From Halalkaliarchaeum desulfuricum (lineage in GTDB: Archaea > Halobacteriota > Halobacteria > Halobacteriales > Haloferacaceae): DNA of 64,000 bases. Numbering within the stretch: position 1 is the first letter of the stretch; every line of letters begins with the position of its first letter. Below, piece by piece: positions 51,293-57,330 of this stretch. Location of the stretch: the NCBI RefSeq assembly GCF_002952775.1, contig NZ_CP025066.1, positions 1,488,001-1,552,000 on the forward strand, read 5' to 3'. The translations under genes were made by a program, and so were the position numbers. The notes below the pieces were generated by a model. The model saw only the letters and a program-made list of their open reading frames with translations, did not search any database and was not told where the DNA came from.

Positions 51293-53248
51293 TCAGTCGT
51301 CAGTTTCGGTTCGCGCGCGTCGTCTGGTCGCCCGCTCGATGAACTCCTGGGGGAGTTCGTCGATCTCGCCCGCCTGCACGCCCCACAGGTGGGCGTACAG
51401 CCCGTCGTTTTCCAGCAACTCCCCGTGGGTGCCGCGTTCGACGATCCGGCCGTCCTCGAGGACGACGATCGTGTCGGCGTCCTTGATCGTCGAGAGCCGG
51501 TGGGCGATGGCAAACGTCGTCCGGTCTTCGGTGAGCCGATCGAGCGAGCGCTGGATCAGCATCTCGGTTTCGGTGTCGACGTCGGAGGTCGCCTCGTCGA
51601 GGATCAGGAGGTCTGGATCCTTCAACACCGCGCGGGCGATGCTGACCCGCTGGCGCTGCCCGCCGGAGAGCTTCACCCCGCGCTCGCCGACCATCGTGTC
51701 GTAGCCGTCGGGCAGGTTCTGGATGAACTCGTGGGCCTCGGCAGCCTTGGCGGCCTCGATTACCTCCCGATCGGTCGCCTCGAAGGTGCCGTAGGTGATG
51801 TTCTCCCGCACGGTGCCGTAAAACAGGAACGTGGTCTGACCGACGTAGCCGACCGACCGCCGGAGACTCGGCAGGGTCACCTCCCGAACGTCCTGGTCGT
51901 CGATCCGGATCGCCCCCTCGTCGACGTCGTACATCCGCAACAGCAGTTTCAAGACCGTCGACTTCCCGGCACCGGTCGGGCCGACCAGCGCGAGCGTCTC
52001 CCCGCCCTCGACGGTGAAGTCGACGTCCTCGACGATCGTCTCCTCCTCGTCGTAGCCGAACGTGACGTCGTCGTACTCCACCCGTCCGTCGGTGACGGCC
52101 AGTTCGGTCGCGTTCGGATCCTCCGCCAGGCGGGACGGTTCGTCCATCAGCCCGAAGATCCGCGCCGCCGACGCCCGGGCGCGCTGGTACATGTTAATTA
52201 TCTGCCCGAACTGGGCCATCGGCCAGATGAACCGCTGGGTGTAGAGGATAAACACCACGAACATCCCCACCGAGAGTTCGCCGGTGAACGGCCCCGGCGG
52301 CCCCTGGAACACCCACAGTCCGCCGACGACGAACGTCACCGCGAAGCCGATCCCGGCGAGCAGCCGCAGCCCCGGGAAGAACTTGATCCGCGTCTCGATT
52401 GCGTCCCAGTTGGCGTCGAAGTAGTCGAACGAGACGTCGTCGACCCGGTCGGACTCGTAGTCCTCCGTATTCGACGACTTGATCACCTGAATCCCGCCGA
52501 GGTTGTTCTCCAGCCGGGAGTTCATGTTCCCGACGGTCGACCGGACCTCCGCGTACTTCGGCTGGATGATCTTGATAAACAGGTAGGTGAAGCCGGCGAT
52601 CAACGGGACGGGCAAAAGCGCCACGAGCGCGAGTTGCCAGTTGATCCAGAACAGCAACACGCCGATCGCGACCACCATCACCAGCATTCGAAACAGGGAG
52701 TTCATCCCGTCGTTGAGGAACCGCTCCAGCCGGTTGACGTCGTTCGAGAGGATCGACATCATCTCGCCGGTCTGCTTGTCGGCGAAGAAGTCCATGTTCA
52801 GCCGCTGCATCTCGTCGTAGGTGTCCGTCCGGATGTCGTGCTGGATGTTCTGCGCGTAGGAGTTGAACCCCCAGTTTCGCGTCCAGTGGAACGCCGCCCC
52901 GACGAGAAACGCGCCGGCGATGAGGGCGACGGTGAACCAGAACTGTCCAGTCTGTGTCGTCGGCAGCCACGCCTCCGGCAACAACACGAGCGGGACCTGC
53001 TCTTCGAACGCCGCCGCCTCCCCGGCCTCGTGTTCGGCCGGGGTGACGAAGATGACGTCGACCGCGATCCCGAGCATCAACGGTGGCAGCAGATCGAGCA
53101 CCCGGGCGACGACACTGGCGAGGATTCCGACCACAGCCTGGAACGTGTAGTCCCGGCCGTACTCGGAGAACAGCCGCTTCATCGGGTTCTCGATCTTGTC
53201 CCGTTGTTCCTCGAACGGGTCGTCTTTCTCCCAGTCGATGCCGCTCAT
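51293..53248 (-). CDS. ABC transporter, fused permease and ATPase (MsbA/multidrug type)
   Basis: The 651-residue half-transporter has six hydrophobic spans in residues 30-360 (including the coupling segments DEMQRLNMDFFADKQTGEMM) and an ATPase at about 390-620: Walker A LVGPTGAGKSTVLKLLLRMY, Q-loop GYVGQTTFLF, signature KLSGGQRQRVSIARAVLKDP, Walker B LLILDEATSDVD, and H-loop IAHRLSTIK. It acts as a dimer and exports a lipid, drug or glycolipid. The long acidic start (MSGIDWEKDDPFEEQRDKIE) is typical of haloarchaea. Starts about 30 bp before the divergent spacer. Confidence 0.92.
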   Translation of the reverse strand: MSGIDWEKDDPFEEQRDKIENPMKRLFSEYGRDYTFQAVVGILASVVARVLDLLPPLMLGIAVDVIFVTPAEHEAGEAAAFEEQVPLVLLPEAWLPTTQTGQFWFTVALIAGAFLVGAAFHWTRNWGFNSYAQNIQHDIRTDTYDEMQRLNMDFFADKQTGEMMSILSNDVNRLERFLNDGMNSLFRMLVMVVAIGVLLFWINWQLALVALLPVPLIAGFTYLFIKIIQPKYAEVRSTVGNMNSRLENNLGGIQVIKSSNTEDYESDRVDDVSFDYFDANWDAIETRIKFFPGLRLLAGIGFAVTFVVGGLWVFQGPPGPFTGELSVGMFVVFILYTQRFIWPMAQFGQIINMYQRARASAARIFGLMDEPSRLAEDPNATELAVTDGRVEYDDVTFGYDEEETIVEDVDFTVEGGETLALVGPTGAGKSTVLKLLLRMYDVDEGAIRIDDQDVREVTLPSLRRSVGYVGQTTFLFYGTVRENITYGTFEATDREVIEAAKAAEAHEFIQNLPDGYDTMVGERGVKLSGGQRQRVSIARAVLKDPDLLILDEATSDVDTETEMLIQRSLDRLTEDRTTFAIAHRLSTIKDADTIVVLEDGRIVERGTHGELLENDGLYAHLWGVQAGEIDELPQEFIERATRRRARTETDD

Positions 53249-53382: not shown

Positions 53383-53619
53383 ATGCAGGTGACAGTCGAT
53401 GTGGTCGGGAAAGGAGAACGCGAACTCGAGATCGACGCGGGCGCTACCTACGGCGACGTCGTTCGGTCGGTCGGGTACAACACACAGGAGGCTGCGGTAC
53501 TCGTCGACGGAACGCCGGTGCCCGAGGACGCCACAGTCGACGCCGATCGGGTGACCGTGCTTCGACTGATAAAAGGCGGGAACGGAAACGTGGGATTCGG
53601 CGACGATTGCCGCGCGTAG
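53383..53619 (+). CDS. SAMP2-like ubiquitin-fold protein with residues after Gly-Gly
   Basis: The 78-residue ubiquitin-like beta-grasp protein opens MQVTVDVVGKGERELEIDAG and has VLVDGTPVPEDATVDADRVT followed by VLRLIKGG, matching archaeal SAMP2, a protein modifier and sulfur carrier. SAMPs end with the Gly-Gly that is adenylated by UbaA; here the frame runs on NGNVGFGDDCRA (12 residues) before TAG at 53617-53619. Either the tail is trimmed, as with ubiquitin precursors, or the protein is not a conjugated modifier. It precedes the tat genes. Confidence 0.85.
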   Translation: MQVTVDVVGKGERELEIDAGATYGDVVRSVGYNTQEAAVLVDGTPVPEDATVDADRVTVLRLIKGGNGNVGFGDDCRA

Positions 53620-53647: not shown

Positions 53648-54943
53648 TCAGTTGCCGGTCCACCGGAGCAGCGCGAGCGTCCCCTCGTAGAGGCCGATCA
53701 TGGTGAGCGTGACGATGATCGGCGCCATCCCGGTCGGGTCCGGGGTGACGAGCCACGAGAGCCCGAGGAAGCCACCCCAAAACAGGAGGCGCTTGTCCTC
53801 CAGCCACTCCCGCGTGACGATGTTCATCATGATCGCGAGCATGATCAAAAGCGGGATCTGGAAGACGATCCCCATGTATCCGATCAGGATGATGATGAGG
53901 TTGAACGTCTCCGCCAGGCCGAACGCGATCACTGCGGTCCCTTCGGTGTAGGCGGTGAAGTACGCGAAGATCGCCGGGAGGACGATGAAGTGTGCAAACA
54001 GCCCTCCGATCGTCGCGAGCACCATGCTCGTGGGGATCGCCGCCAGATAGTATCGCCGCTCCCTGGGATACAGGCCGGGGCGCATGAACAGGTACGTCTC
54101 GTAGACGAACACCGGCAGGCCGAACAGGAGGCCGGCGAGGCCGGCGACCTTGAGTTTTGTGAGAATGAATTCCAGGGGCCCGTACACTCGCGGTCGGTTC
54201 ACCTGTGGATCCGGGATGTGGCTCGACCAGAAGTAGTTGATGGCGATGTCAGCGGTTGGATACGCGATGAGCGTGGCGATTCCGGCCACCAGGAAGACGA
54301 CGCCGAGCCGCCGCATCATCTCCTCGATGTGGTCCGCGAGCGGCATCTCCTCGTCCGACTCGGGCCCTTCGAACAGGGGGTCGTCGTCATCTCGCTCGGT
54401 GGCTACCGCACCGGCGCCGTTCGAGACCGCCGCGTCGTCCCCGTCGTCGCCGTCCTCGTCGTCCCCGTCGTCGCCGTCCTCGTCGTCCCCGTCGTCGCCG
54501 TCCTCGTCGTCCCCGTCGTCGCTGTCCTCGTCGTCCCGCTTCGGACGCATACGGCGCGGTTTCTTTCGAGGACTCGTGCCCTCGTTGATCGCGTCGTCTC
54601 CGTCCTCTTCGCCGTCCTTGTCTCCGTCCTCGTCGCCGTCCTCTTCGCCGTCCTTGTCTCCGTCCTTGTCTCCGTCCTCGTCGTTCGAGCCGAGCGCCTC
54701 CGGATCGGGGAACAGCCCGCCGTCGTCGAGGTCGTACGACGTCGGTTCGGACGACTCTTCCTCCGACGGCTCTTCCTCCGACGGCTCTTCCTCCGACGGC
54801 TCTTTTTCGCCCGAGGTCGGGGACTCCCCGCCACGTTCGGCGTCGTCGTCGCGGCGTTCCGCGTTCGGGTCGTCGGACCGGTCGCTCTCCGGTTCGGGTT
54901 CGGCGTCGGTTTCCGACGGCTCGTCGCGGTCCGGGTCGCCCAT
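53648..54943 (-). CDS. tatCo: TatC1/TatCo, with a long acidic N-terminal extension
   Basis: Twin-arginine translocase core subunit. Residues 1-205 are a hydrophilic, Asp/Glu-rich region. It holds repeats of PSEEE, DGDKDGEE and DGDDED type, encoded by 15-, 18- and 24-bp tandem DNA repeats (54436-54530, 54598-54680, 54741-54800). Then come six spans with TatC motifs: PLADHIEEMMRRLGVVFLVA (E and R), FILTKLKVAGLAGLLFGLPV, FMRPGLYPRERRYYLAA and WLVTPDPTGMAPIIVTLTMI. Divergent from tatCt with 122 bp between, as in other haloarchaea. The extension is probably cytoplasmic. Confidence 0.92.
   Translation of the reverse strand: MGDPDRDEPSETDAEPEPESDRSDDPNAERRDDDAERGGESPTSGEKEPSEEEPSEEEPSEEESSEPTSYDLDDGGLFPDPEALGSNDEDGDKDGDKDGEEDGDEDGDKDGEEDGDDAINEGTSPRKKPRRMRPKRDDEDSDDGDDEDGDDGDDEDGDDGDDEDGDDGDDAAVSNGAGAVATERDDDDPLFEGPESDEEMPLADHIEEMMRRLGVVFLVAGIATLIAYPTADIAINYFWSSHIPDPQVNRPRVYGPLEFILTKLKVAGLAGLLFGLPVFVYETYLFMRPGLYPRERRYYLAAIPTSMVLATIGGLFAHFIVLPAIFAYFTAYTEGTAVIAFGLAETFNLIIILIGYMGIVFQIPLLIMLAIMMNIVTREWLEDKRLLFWGGFLGLSWLVTPDPTGMAPIIVTLTMIGLYEGTLALLRWTGN
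54436..54530. repeat. 24-bp tandem repeat inside the tatCo gene
   Basis: Four units of CGTCGTCCCCGTCGTCGCCGTCCT form keep frame (24 bp = 8 codons) and encode EDGDDGDD-type acid blocks in the N-terminal extension of TatCo. Confidence 0.8.
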
Positions 54944-55065
54944 TCACCTGACGTTCAGTCCCGGCCATTATAGGCCTTTTCTGATAGCTCCGCGGATACC
55001 CCGGACCGAAACGCACCGGAAACTGGTTGAAAAGGTTGATAGGCTTTAGCGGCCGAGTAGTGGGT

Positions 55066-57330
55066 ATGTCCAGCGCCCTCGACGAGGACACTCAGCAGAC
55101 GCTTGCCGAGGGGAGCGACGCCGTCCGGGCGATGCTCCGTTCGGCCCAGAAGGACCTGCAGAAGGCCTTCATGGTGTTCCTCTTCGTATTTCTCGGGACC
55201 TTCTACGCGCTCCGGCTGTGGGTCTGGGACTACCTCAAGGGCGTCACGCGCGCTCAAATGCCTCCCGACGTCGAGGCCCAACTGGAGATCATCGTTCTGA
55301 CGCCGTTCGACGTGATCCTCCTGCAGGCCAAGATCGGCCTCATCGTCGGTGTCATCGCTGCCATCCCGCCGCTCATATACTTCTCCAGGGAGGCGCTTCG
55401 CGAACGCGACATGTGGCCGGAGGCGCCGATCCCCCGGTGGAAGATTGCCACGATCGGCCTCCTCGCGGCGCTGCTTTTCTCGGGCGGGGTCTTCTACAGC
55501 CAGGGCTTCTTCTTCCCGTTCATGTTCGCGTTCCTCGCAGGCTTCGGTCTCGAGGCGGGCTTCGCGCCGAGCTACTCGATCGTGATGTGGACGGAGTTCA
55601 TCGTCTTTCTGTCGCTGTCGTTCGGGCTCGCCGCCCAGATGCCACTCGTCGTCACCGGGCTGTCGTACGCCGGCATCGTCCAGTACGAGACGTTCCGAGA
55701 CAAATGGAAGTACGCAGTCGTCCTCATCTTCGCCTTCGGCGCGATGTTCTCCCCGCCGGACCCGTTCACGCAGATCATGTGGGCGGTGCCGTTGATCGCG
55801 CTGTACGGCGTCTCCTTGTACCTCGCGAAGATCGCGGTTACCGCCCGCCGGAGAAGCGAGAAGATCGACGTGCCGGCGACGGTGCGAGCGAAGTGGAACG
55901 TGCTCGCCGGGCTGTTCGTGGTCGGGGTCGCCGCGGTGTACGGCTTCTACGATTACGGCGGCCGGCAGGCGGCAAACGAACTGCTCGCATGGATGGGCAG
56001 CGACTATCGAGTATACCCGCTCGGGGAGGGCCTCGGGGTCGCTGAACCGACGGCGATCGCGCTGTACGGGCTGCTCGCCGGGACCGTGTTTGCGGTGCTG
56101 GGAATCATGTATCTGGTGTACGCCGGCCTCGATCCGGTCGAGGATTCCGGCCTGTATGGCGATCCGACGGCGATCGACCTCGGGGAACTCGACGCGGCGG
56201 GCGTCCGGGCTGCGCCGGCCGAGGCGTTCGAGGAGCTGAGTGAAGACGAGGTGATGCAACTGGCCAGTACTGCCCTCGACGCCGAAGATCCCGAAAAGGC
56301 ACAGGCGCTGCTCGACCGGTTCGACGAGGTGGAAGCACAGCGCGCCGAAAGCGGCGACGGGGACGATACGGAGGGAACTTCCGGGGCTGCAGGCGGCGCG
56401 AGCGCCGGCGAAGCGGCCGAGGACATCGCCGGCGAACTGGAGGAACGCAGTTCCAGGGCCGGATCGACGTTCCTCGAGGAGCTCACCGAGGACGGCGAGG
56501 ACGACATCGGCGGCTACTACACGGATCTGAAGTTTATCTTCGACAGCATCCGCTCGCGGTCGTTCATCATCGTCGGCACGTTCCTCGGGGTGATGGCCGC
56601 GACCTTCACGTGGCTGTATCTCGGGGGGCTGGGGAACGTCTTCGACAACTTCCTGGGCCGGCTTCCAAGCGAGGTCGTCGCCGAGAACGTGAACGTGATC
56701 ACCCTCCATCCGGTGGAGGCGCTCATCTTCATCGTGAAGTTCTCGGTGCTCATCGGCGTGCTTGCGATCTTCCCCGTCATCGCGTACTACGCGTGGCCGG
56801 CGCTGCGGGAACTCGGCTTCGTTCGGGGACGACAGAACGTCGTCTTCCTGTGGACCGGCGCGCTCGTCGGCGGGCTGATCGGCGGGTTCCTGCTCGGTTA
56901 CTACTTCTTTGCCCCCTGGCTCATCTCGTATCTCGTCGGCGACGCGCTCGATGCGGGGATGATCATCTCCTACCGGATCAACGACTTCTTCTGGCTGATC
57001 GTCTTCACGACCGCCGGGATCGGCATCCTCGCAGACGTGCCGGTGTTGATGGTGCTTTTGAACTACGCGGGGATCCCCTACCAGGCGATGCGCAACCGGT
57101 GGCGTGAGGTGGTGCTCGCGATGTTGACGTTCGCCGCGGTCTTTACGCCGGCCGACATCGTGACGATGTTCCTCGTGACGATCCCCCTGATGGCCGCCTA
57201 CGGCGTCGGCCTGTTCGCGCTGTTTTTCGTCACACTCGGGGGGAGACGCAACCTCTCGCCGCCGGCGGAGATCGTCGACACCACCTCGACGGCGCTGGAG
57301 GTCGTCGAGACGAAAACGGAGGGCTCCTAA
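55066..57330 (+). CDS. tatCt: TatCt, fused double TatC
   Basis: Haloarchaeal-specific Tat component, two TatC domains joined in one 754-residue protein. Domain 1 is residues 30-290 (AFMVFLFVFLGTFYALRLWV, LTPFDVILLQAKIGLIVGVI, FSPPDPFTQIMWAVPLIALY). A linker with two extra spans and an acidic part runs 290-490 (SGDGDDTEGTSGAAGGASAG). Domain 2 is about 500-735 (ITLHPVEALIFIVKFSVLIG, FAAVFTPADIVTMFLVTIPL). Twin-arginine export dominates secretion in haloarchaea. ATG at 55066; GCTTTA at 55043 is a weak TATA. Divergent to tatCo. Confidence 0.93.
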   Translation: MSSALDEDTQQTLAEGSDAVRAMLRSAQKDLQKAFMVFLFVFLGTFYALRLWVWDYLKGVTRAQMPPDVEAQLEIIVLTPFDVILLQAKIGLIVGVIAAIPPLIYFSREALRERDMWPEAPIPRWKIATIGLLAALLFSGGVFYSQGFFFPFMFAFLAGFGLEAGFAPSYSIVMWTEFIVFLSLSFGLAAQMPLVVTGLSYAGIVQYETFRDKWKYAVVLIFAFGAMFSPPDPFTQIMWAVPLIALYGVSLYLAKIAVTARRRSEKIDVPATVRAKWNVLAGLFVVGVAAVYGFYDYGGRQAANELLAWMGSDYRVYPLGEGLGVAEPTAIALYGLLAGTVFAVLGIMYLVYAGLDPVEDSGLYGDPTAIDLGELDAAGVRAAPAEAFEELSEDEVMQLASTALDAEDPEKAQALLDRFDEVEAQRAESGDGDDTEGTSGAAGGASAGEAAEDIAGELEERSSRAGSTFLEELTEDGEDDIGGYYTDLKFIFDSIRSRSFIIVGTFLGVMAATFTWLYLGGLGNVFDNFLGRLPSEVVAENVNVITLHPVEALIFIVKFSVLIGVLAIFPVIAYYAWPALRELGFVRGRQNVVFLWTGALVGGLIGGFLLGYYFFAPWLISYLVGDALDAGMIISYRINDFFWLIVFTTAGIGILADVPVLMVLLNYAGIPYQAMRNRWREVVLAMLTFAAVFTPADIVTMFLVTIPLMAAYGVGLFALFFVTLGGRRNLSPPAEIVDTTSTALEVVETKTEGS

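Follow-up and report, generated by a model that had tools for sequence, protein, structure and literature searches.

Tailed and enzyme-fused SAMP2 in haloarchaea: candidate precursors for maturation by the desampylase JAMM1

Eukaryotic ubiquitin is produced as precursors (tailed forms, polyubiquitin and ribosomal-protein fusions) whose masked Gly-Gly is freed by a deubiquitinase. In the bacterial QbsE/QbsD system, the residues past the Gly-Gly of a sulfur-carrier ubiquitin-like protein (Ubl) are removed by a JAMM protease. Ubl-MoaE (MoaD-MoaE) fusions have also been described in bacteria (PMC4443979). The SAMPs act via a C-terminal glycine in UbaA-requiring reactions, and HvJAMM1 cuts a linear SAMP1-MoaE fusion, engineered in Haloferax, exactly after the Gly-Gly, in vivo as well, which activates the modifier (PMC4443979). 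HvJAMM1 by itself also cleaves SAMP conjugates, whereas HvJAMM2 was reported to be inactive when alone (PMC4895103). JAMM proteases are already known to process archaeal modifier precursors in vitro: the ubiquitin and SAMP precursors of Caldiarchaeum subterraneum are cut by CsRpn11 and CsJAMM, with CsJAMM cutting the SAMP precursors (PMC6043591). The text consulted, which concerns recombinant proteins of a different archaeal lineage, reports neither enzyme fusions nor phyletic dependence.

Here, we describe a SAMP2 gene in Halalkaliarchaeum desulfuricum that encodes additional residues past its Gly-Gly. It lies in a 64,000-nucleotide stretch of DNA (hereafter the window). The relevant features are as follows.

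51293..53248, - strand: ABC-transporter-like gene, upstream and divergent (ORF list; identity from translation)
53383-53619, + strand: SAMP2 ORF with tail, ATG at 53383, TAG at 53617-53619, 78 aa, ending ...VLRLIKGG-NGNVGFGDDCRA
53383..53580, + strand: SAMP2 core of 66 codons, a beta-grasp ubiquitin-like modifier / sulfur carrier (NF041919, PF21965, PDB 2l32/4hrs)
53575..53580, + strand: codons GGC GGG for Gly65-Gly66, the expected mature C-terminus and predicted cleavage site (sequence; Gly-Gly in all 255 SAMP2 loci parsed)
53581..53616, + strand: C-terminal tail NGNVGFGDDCRA, 12 codons, removal predicted (ORF translation; drift against the congener tail)
53617..53619, + strand: TAG stop, same column in the sister species G001
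53648..54943, - strand: TatC-like gene, downstream and convergent (ORF list; identity from translation; same arrangement in G001)

The initial annotation had recognized a SAMP2-like modifier with 12 residues after its Gly-Gly, and the ORF, both family profiles and the structural alignment all confirm this. Residues 1-66 occupy model positions 1-66 of 66 in the NCBIfam equivalog NF041919 (SAMP2; 99.8 bits against a cut-off of 70), residues 1-63 match the Pfam SAMP2 family PF21965 (96 bits against a cut-off of 27), and the protein aligns with the solved Haloferax SAMP2 structures 2L32 and 4HRS up to Gly66. The domain ends in the diglycine Gly65-Gly66, as in SAMP2 of Haloferax volcanii (HVO_0202), which belongs to the same family, has the same length through RLIKGG and is likewise accompanied by a single genomic UbaA-type E1. 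On the other hand, the Gly-Gly is encoded last in 11 of 15 Haloferax genomes, whereas in the window it is internal to the primary product, as it is in 104 of the 255 genomes parsed. An encoded terminal diglycine, as first described in Haloferax, is an unsound defining feature of the SAMP2 family. Only one SAMP2 is encoded by the closed genome (a hit at 4e-47, the next best at E=0.04); neither there nor in the family search, which gave one SAMP2 per genome, was a second, bare copy found. Thus, the tailed species have no bare copy.

A single T inserted after GGCGGG would create a TAA directly behind the Gly-Gly; the window sequence by itself thus left room for an error, in that one missing T could mask such a stop. 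G001, the sole further genome in the genus and independently sequenced, likewise has no stop after the Gly-Gly (GGC GTC TCC ...); its 12-codon tail, VSRVNRDGDRRR, follows the same RLIKGG without gaps and ends at the same TAG. Between the two genomes, 83% of nucleotides are identical in the core, against 42% in the tail and 33% over the 36 bases past the stop, and only 3 of the 12 tail residues are common to both, so that just length and stop are shared. The open end is thus inherited, while its sequence drifts almost like intergenic DNA. With so few shared residues and a tail identity near that past the stop, we rejected a tail with a conserved function of its own. Its length is also unremarkable (a random frame at local GC 0.638 meets a stop within 12 codons with probability 0.29). 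A sequencing error, which the initial annotation had named as able to refute its reading, or an assembly error was not borne out: the congener has a different tail at the same TAG column, and tails or fusions occur in 95 of 151 parsed genomes of the family. We count this explanation as already refuted and give it next to no probability. The annotation had also suggested that the stop has shifted, which holds in the sense of evolutionary movement of the stop and fails in the sense of a sequencing artefact, in view of the congener and the many tailed genomes.

The comparison of homologues proposed at that time revealed that tails recur widely and that some are whole enzymes. The family here is Haloferacaceae (including Haloferax, Halorubrum, Halobellus and Haloplanus), with 170 genomes and a SAMP2 match in 154, one each. 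SAMP2 ends were read in 151 of them: 56 were bare, 76 had 1-25 extra residues and 19 were fused to a whole domain. Among well-covered genomes, 92 of 145 had tails, which are the majority state of SAMP2 in Haloferacaceae. Gly-Gly was present in 255 of 255 SAMP2 loci read (a requirement of the parser, which none of the SAMP2 loci failed), including all tailed and fused genomes, and the residues directly behind it vary freely. The residue immediately following (P1') was A, S, T or G in 87 of 104 cases, an apparent preference that is confounded with kinship and local composition. Two genomes of the same family (G098 and G100, 98-99% complete) have JAMM1 and no SAMP2 match at E<=1e-4; SAMP2 has possibly been lost or strongly diverged in them.

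Two kinds of fusion were identified. SAMP2-GlyGly-GNAT proteins were present in all 12 genomes assigned to the genus containing Haloplanus, along with two from the Halorubrum genus, and SAMP2-GlyGly-peroxiredoxin proteins in Halopenitus, Haloparvum and one further genus as well as, outside the family, in Halorussus. The fused domains were supported by profiles (AhpC-TSA at 55-68 bits; GNAT models above cut-off).

SAMP2-GNAT acetyltransferase fusions: loci L014, L016, L018, L054, L063, L068, L100, L101, L110, L114, L120, L126, L128, L131
SAMP2-peroxiredoxin fusions: loci L005-L008, L129, L215, L266, L317-L319

The same GNAT is the next gene, in another frame, in most unfused relatives, and the same peroxiredoxin in many, which indicates that the fusions arose by joining neighbours. 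A GNAT neighbour of this modifier family in Halobacteria had already been noted by Makarova and Koonin (PMC2948915). In one peroxiredoxin fusion (L266) the second cysteine of the CxxC is lost (CRKS), and the peroxiredoxin part of another (L319) looks frameshifted.

Of the 47 short tails in Halorubrum, 46 terminate with GTGA, the final base together with the stop codon; in most of these the ORF downstream could start at the GTG, and tail length seems to be set there by stop-start coupling. Overlap with a downstream gene does not account for the window tail, as the next gene is the convergent TatC-like one and no co-directional gene follows SAMP2. Four Halorubrum tails (L038, L045, L053 and L066) resemble products of tandem expansion in frame (ATDGDATDGDA, ATDDGATDDGATDCDA, AEGGP repeats), a pattern to be expected if the tail is free of constraint.

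Outside the window, the same genome encodes an intact JAMM1 with the complete E...HSHP-x6-S-x2-D motif, a weaker JAMM2-like paralogue (77.5 versus 38.6 bits for PF14464) and one ThiF/UbaA-like E1 (272 bits). Its JAMM1 is kin to JAMM1 rather than JAMM2 and matches PfJAMM1 (5lda/5ld9), for which the 5lda entry includes a chain named SAMP2. Isopeptide conjugation and thiocarboxylate formation by this SAMP2 would proceed through UbaA, and a ThiF-family E1 is present. The JAMM1 gene (L150:1486-2360; G000:C1:1411356-1412230) is followed after ~80 bases by a rhodanese-like gene, and the congener shows the same order. Such a gene follows JAMM1 in the window genus, Halobellus, Halopenitus and others and precedes it in Halolamina; overall, a rhodanese adjoins JAMM1 at 12 of 53 loci, in the window genus and in some further genera, possibly a sulfur-transfer link. 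An operon link between JAMM1 and SAMP2 was rejected, as none was seen among the JAMM1 loci inspected.

We then compared SAMP2 ends with the presence of JAMM1, which was searched with the window genome's own protein and the Pfam profile. In well-covered genomes, a tail was present in 100 of 159 genomes with JAMM1 and in 0 of 86 without, all of the latter having a bare Gly-Gly (Fisher 7e-27), where it should be noted that outside the family SAMP2 was read only in JAMM1-less genomes and in a tail-enriched set of JAMM1-bearing ones. When counted by genus, 18 of 32 with JAMM1 and 0 of 23 without were tailed (p=4e-6). Within Haloferacaceae, which were sampled regardless of tails, the corresponding numbers were 92 of 135 versus 0 of 10 genomes and 14 of 21 versus 0 of 4 genera (p=0.026); the 10 well-covered JAMM1-less genomes belong to four genera. 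In the wider class JAMM1 was absent in 96 of 391 genomes, and all 78 JAMM1-less genomes outside the family in which SAMP2 ends were read were bare, whereas the tailed or fused genomes found there all had JAMM1. Thus, all 100 tailed, well-covered genomes possess JAMM1, the candidate cognate protease, a strict co-occurrence. A profile recheck of 80 JAMM1-less genomes gave no strong JAMM, only JAMM2-like hits of ~50 bits or less, while JAMM1 scored ~64-87 bits in most genomes. The one exception is a genome with a SAMP2-GNAT fusion, G077, in whose metagenome assembly (79% complete) JAMM1 was not found. The relationship is one-way, since many JAMM1-bearing genomes have a bare SAMP2.

Because related genomes are not independent, we also applied a Pagel-type test (independent versus dependent two-character models) to the SAMP2 gene tree, which is short and poorly resolved. 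The dependent model was favoured for all genomes (LR 42, p=6e-10), for Haloferacaceae only (p=0.0075) and after removal of eight tail-selected outsiders (p=5e-6), and the fitted rate of tail gain without JAMM1 was zero in each fit.

Judging from these sequence comparisons, SAMP2 is likely to be a precursor that JAMM1 trims after the Gly-Gly before UbaA can use it. The gene would encode a SAMP2 proprotein, and JAMM1, a desampylase with a single domain that belongs to the zinc JAB/MPN+ proteases and is encoded elsewhere in the genome, would cut the main chain of SAMP2 after Gly66, freeing the 12-residue tail and mature SAMP2 with a free Gly-Gly, which UbaA would adenylate for sulfur transfer and SAMPylation. 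If JAMM1 always cleaned the end, the encoded end would be selectively irrelevant and the stop codon could drift in JAMM1-bearing haloarchaea; it might slide downstream into the start of the next gene (GTGA, Halorubrum) or be lost, in which case SAMP2 would form one polyprotein with the product of the following gene, peroxiredoxin or GNAT. Loss of JAMM1, in turn, would demand a bare end. We infer that JAMM1 makes the cut and is required for it, and that uncut SAMP2 is inactive. The initial annotation had supposed proteolytic trimming of the tail in the manner of ubiquitin precursors, and the comparison supports this well: tails are restricted to JAMM1-bearing genomes, the Gly-Gly is kept behind a drifting sequence, and each genome has one SAMP2 copy.

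Some other protease, such as JAMM2 in a complex, a carboxypeptidase or the proteasome, might instead trim the tail, with JAMM1 merely correlated. JAMM2-like genes were found in nearly every genome searched, recycling of SAMP2 by JAMM2 has been proposed (PMC4895103), and short tails could be nibbled by a carboxypeptidase. However, all 86 well-covered JAMM1-less genomes are bare and the 80 rechecked retain JAMM2, which argues that JAMM2 is insufficient for tails to persist and fits its reported inactivity alone as opposed to the activity of HvJAMM1; nor could end-nibbling digest a whole folded domain, peroxiredoxin or GNAT, and then halt at the Gly-Gly. We thus consider such a protease unlikely. 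Still less probable, in our opinion, is that the tail is never removed, so that Gly-Gly-dependent functions are lost and tailed SAMP2 works non-covalently or not at all. Such a reading accords with an internal Gly-Gly in the primary product, whose maturation is a prediction, but it sits poorly with the retention of Gly-Gly next to freely varying residues and with the presence of both SAMP2 and UbaA in the closed window genome, and loss of function would not explain why tails occur only in genomes with JAMM1.

Cleavage by JAMM1 would make tailed SAMP2 comparable to each of the systems above. The bond in question is the same main-chain bond past a SAMP Gly-Gly that HvJAMM1 was shown to cut in SAMP1-MoaE; the haloarchaeal SAMP2 tails and fused enzymes, unlike that engineered protein, are natural. 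Removal of residues past the Gly-Gly by a JAMM-family protease, demonstrated for the Caldiarchaeum modifiers, is here a prediction. As in eukaryotic ubiquitin, a tail of variable sequence or a fusion partner covers the Gly-Gly, although cysteine proteases act there whereas a JAMM metalloprotease is predicted here, and the partners of SAMP2 are peroxiredoxin and GNAT; the arrangement presumably arose independently. In contrast to QbsE/QbsD and MoaD-MoaE, which are dedicated biosynthetic pairs, SAMP2 is a general modifier and tRNA-thiolation carrier.

No report of tailed haloarchaeal SAMP2, of SAMP2-peroxiredoxin or SAMP2-GNAT proteins, or of JAMM1 dependence was found in the open-access literature; natural SAMP2 precursors, enzyme fusions and a strict JAMM1 dependence appear to be unreported. 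If the proposed maturation is correct, JAMM1 would gain a second, upstream job in making SAMP2 usable, a cellular archaeal modifier would be widely made as a precursor, and the fusions would be natural archaeal counterparts of ubiquitin fusion genes. With roughly even chances, the idea could be extended: in many haloarchaea SAMP2 would be made obligatorily as a proprotein, with JAMM1, hitherto known as a desampylase, also acting as its essential maturation protease, and several lineages would have evolved ubiquitin-style polyproteins in which one cut yields SAMP2 and equimolar peroxiredoxin or GNAT, coupling sulfur transfer and tagging to redox defence or acetylation. Bare-SAMP2 species, for example Haloferax volcanii, are predicted to do without jamm1 in tRNA thiolation, whereas Halorubrum, Haloplanus or Halopenitus should need it. 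Haloarchaeal annotation and proteomics that assume an encoded C-terminal Gly-Gly would need correcting.

Downstream of SAMP2, several tandem repeats of 12-36 bp (54433-54804) fall within the TatC-like gene (53648-54943, - strand), in its N-terminal part, and encode a long Asp/Glu/Gly-rich extension (EDGDDGDDEDGDD...), while TatC of the congener has a different acidic extension. A second, double-length TatC-like gene (55027-57330, 767 aa), apparently of two TatC-like halves, adjoins the single one and is divergent from it.
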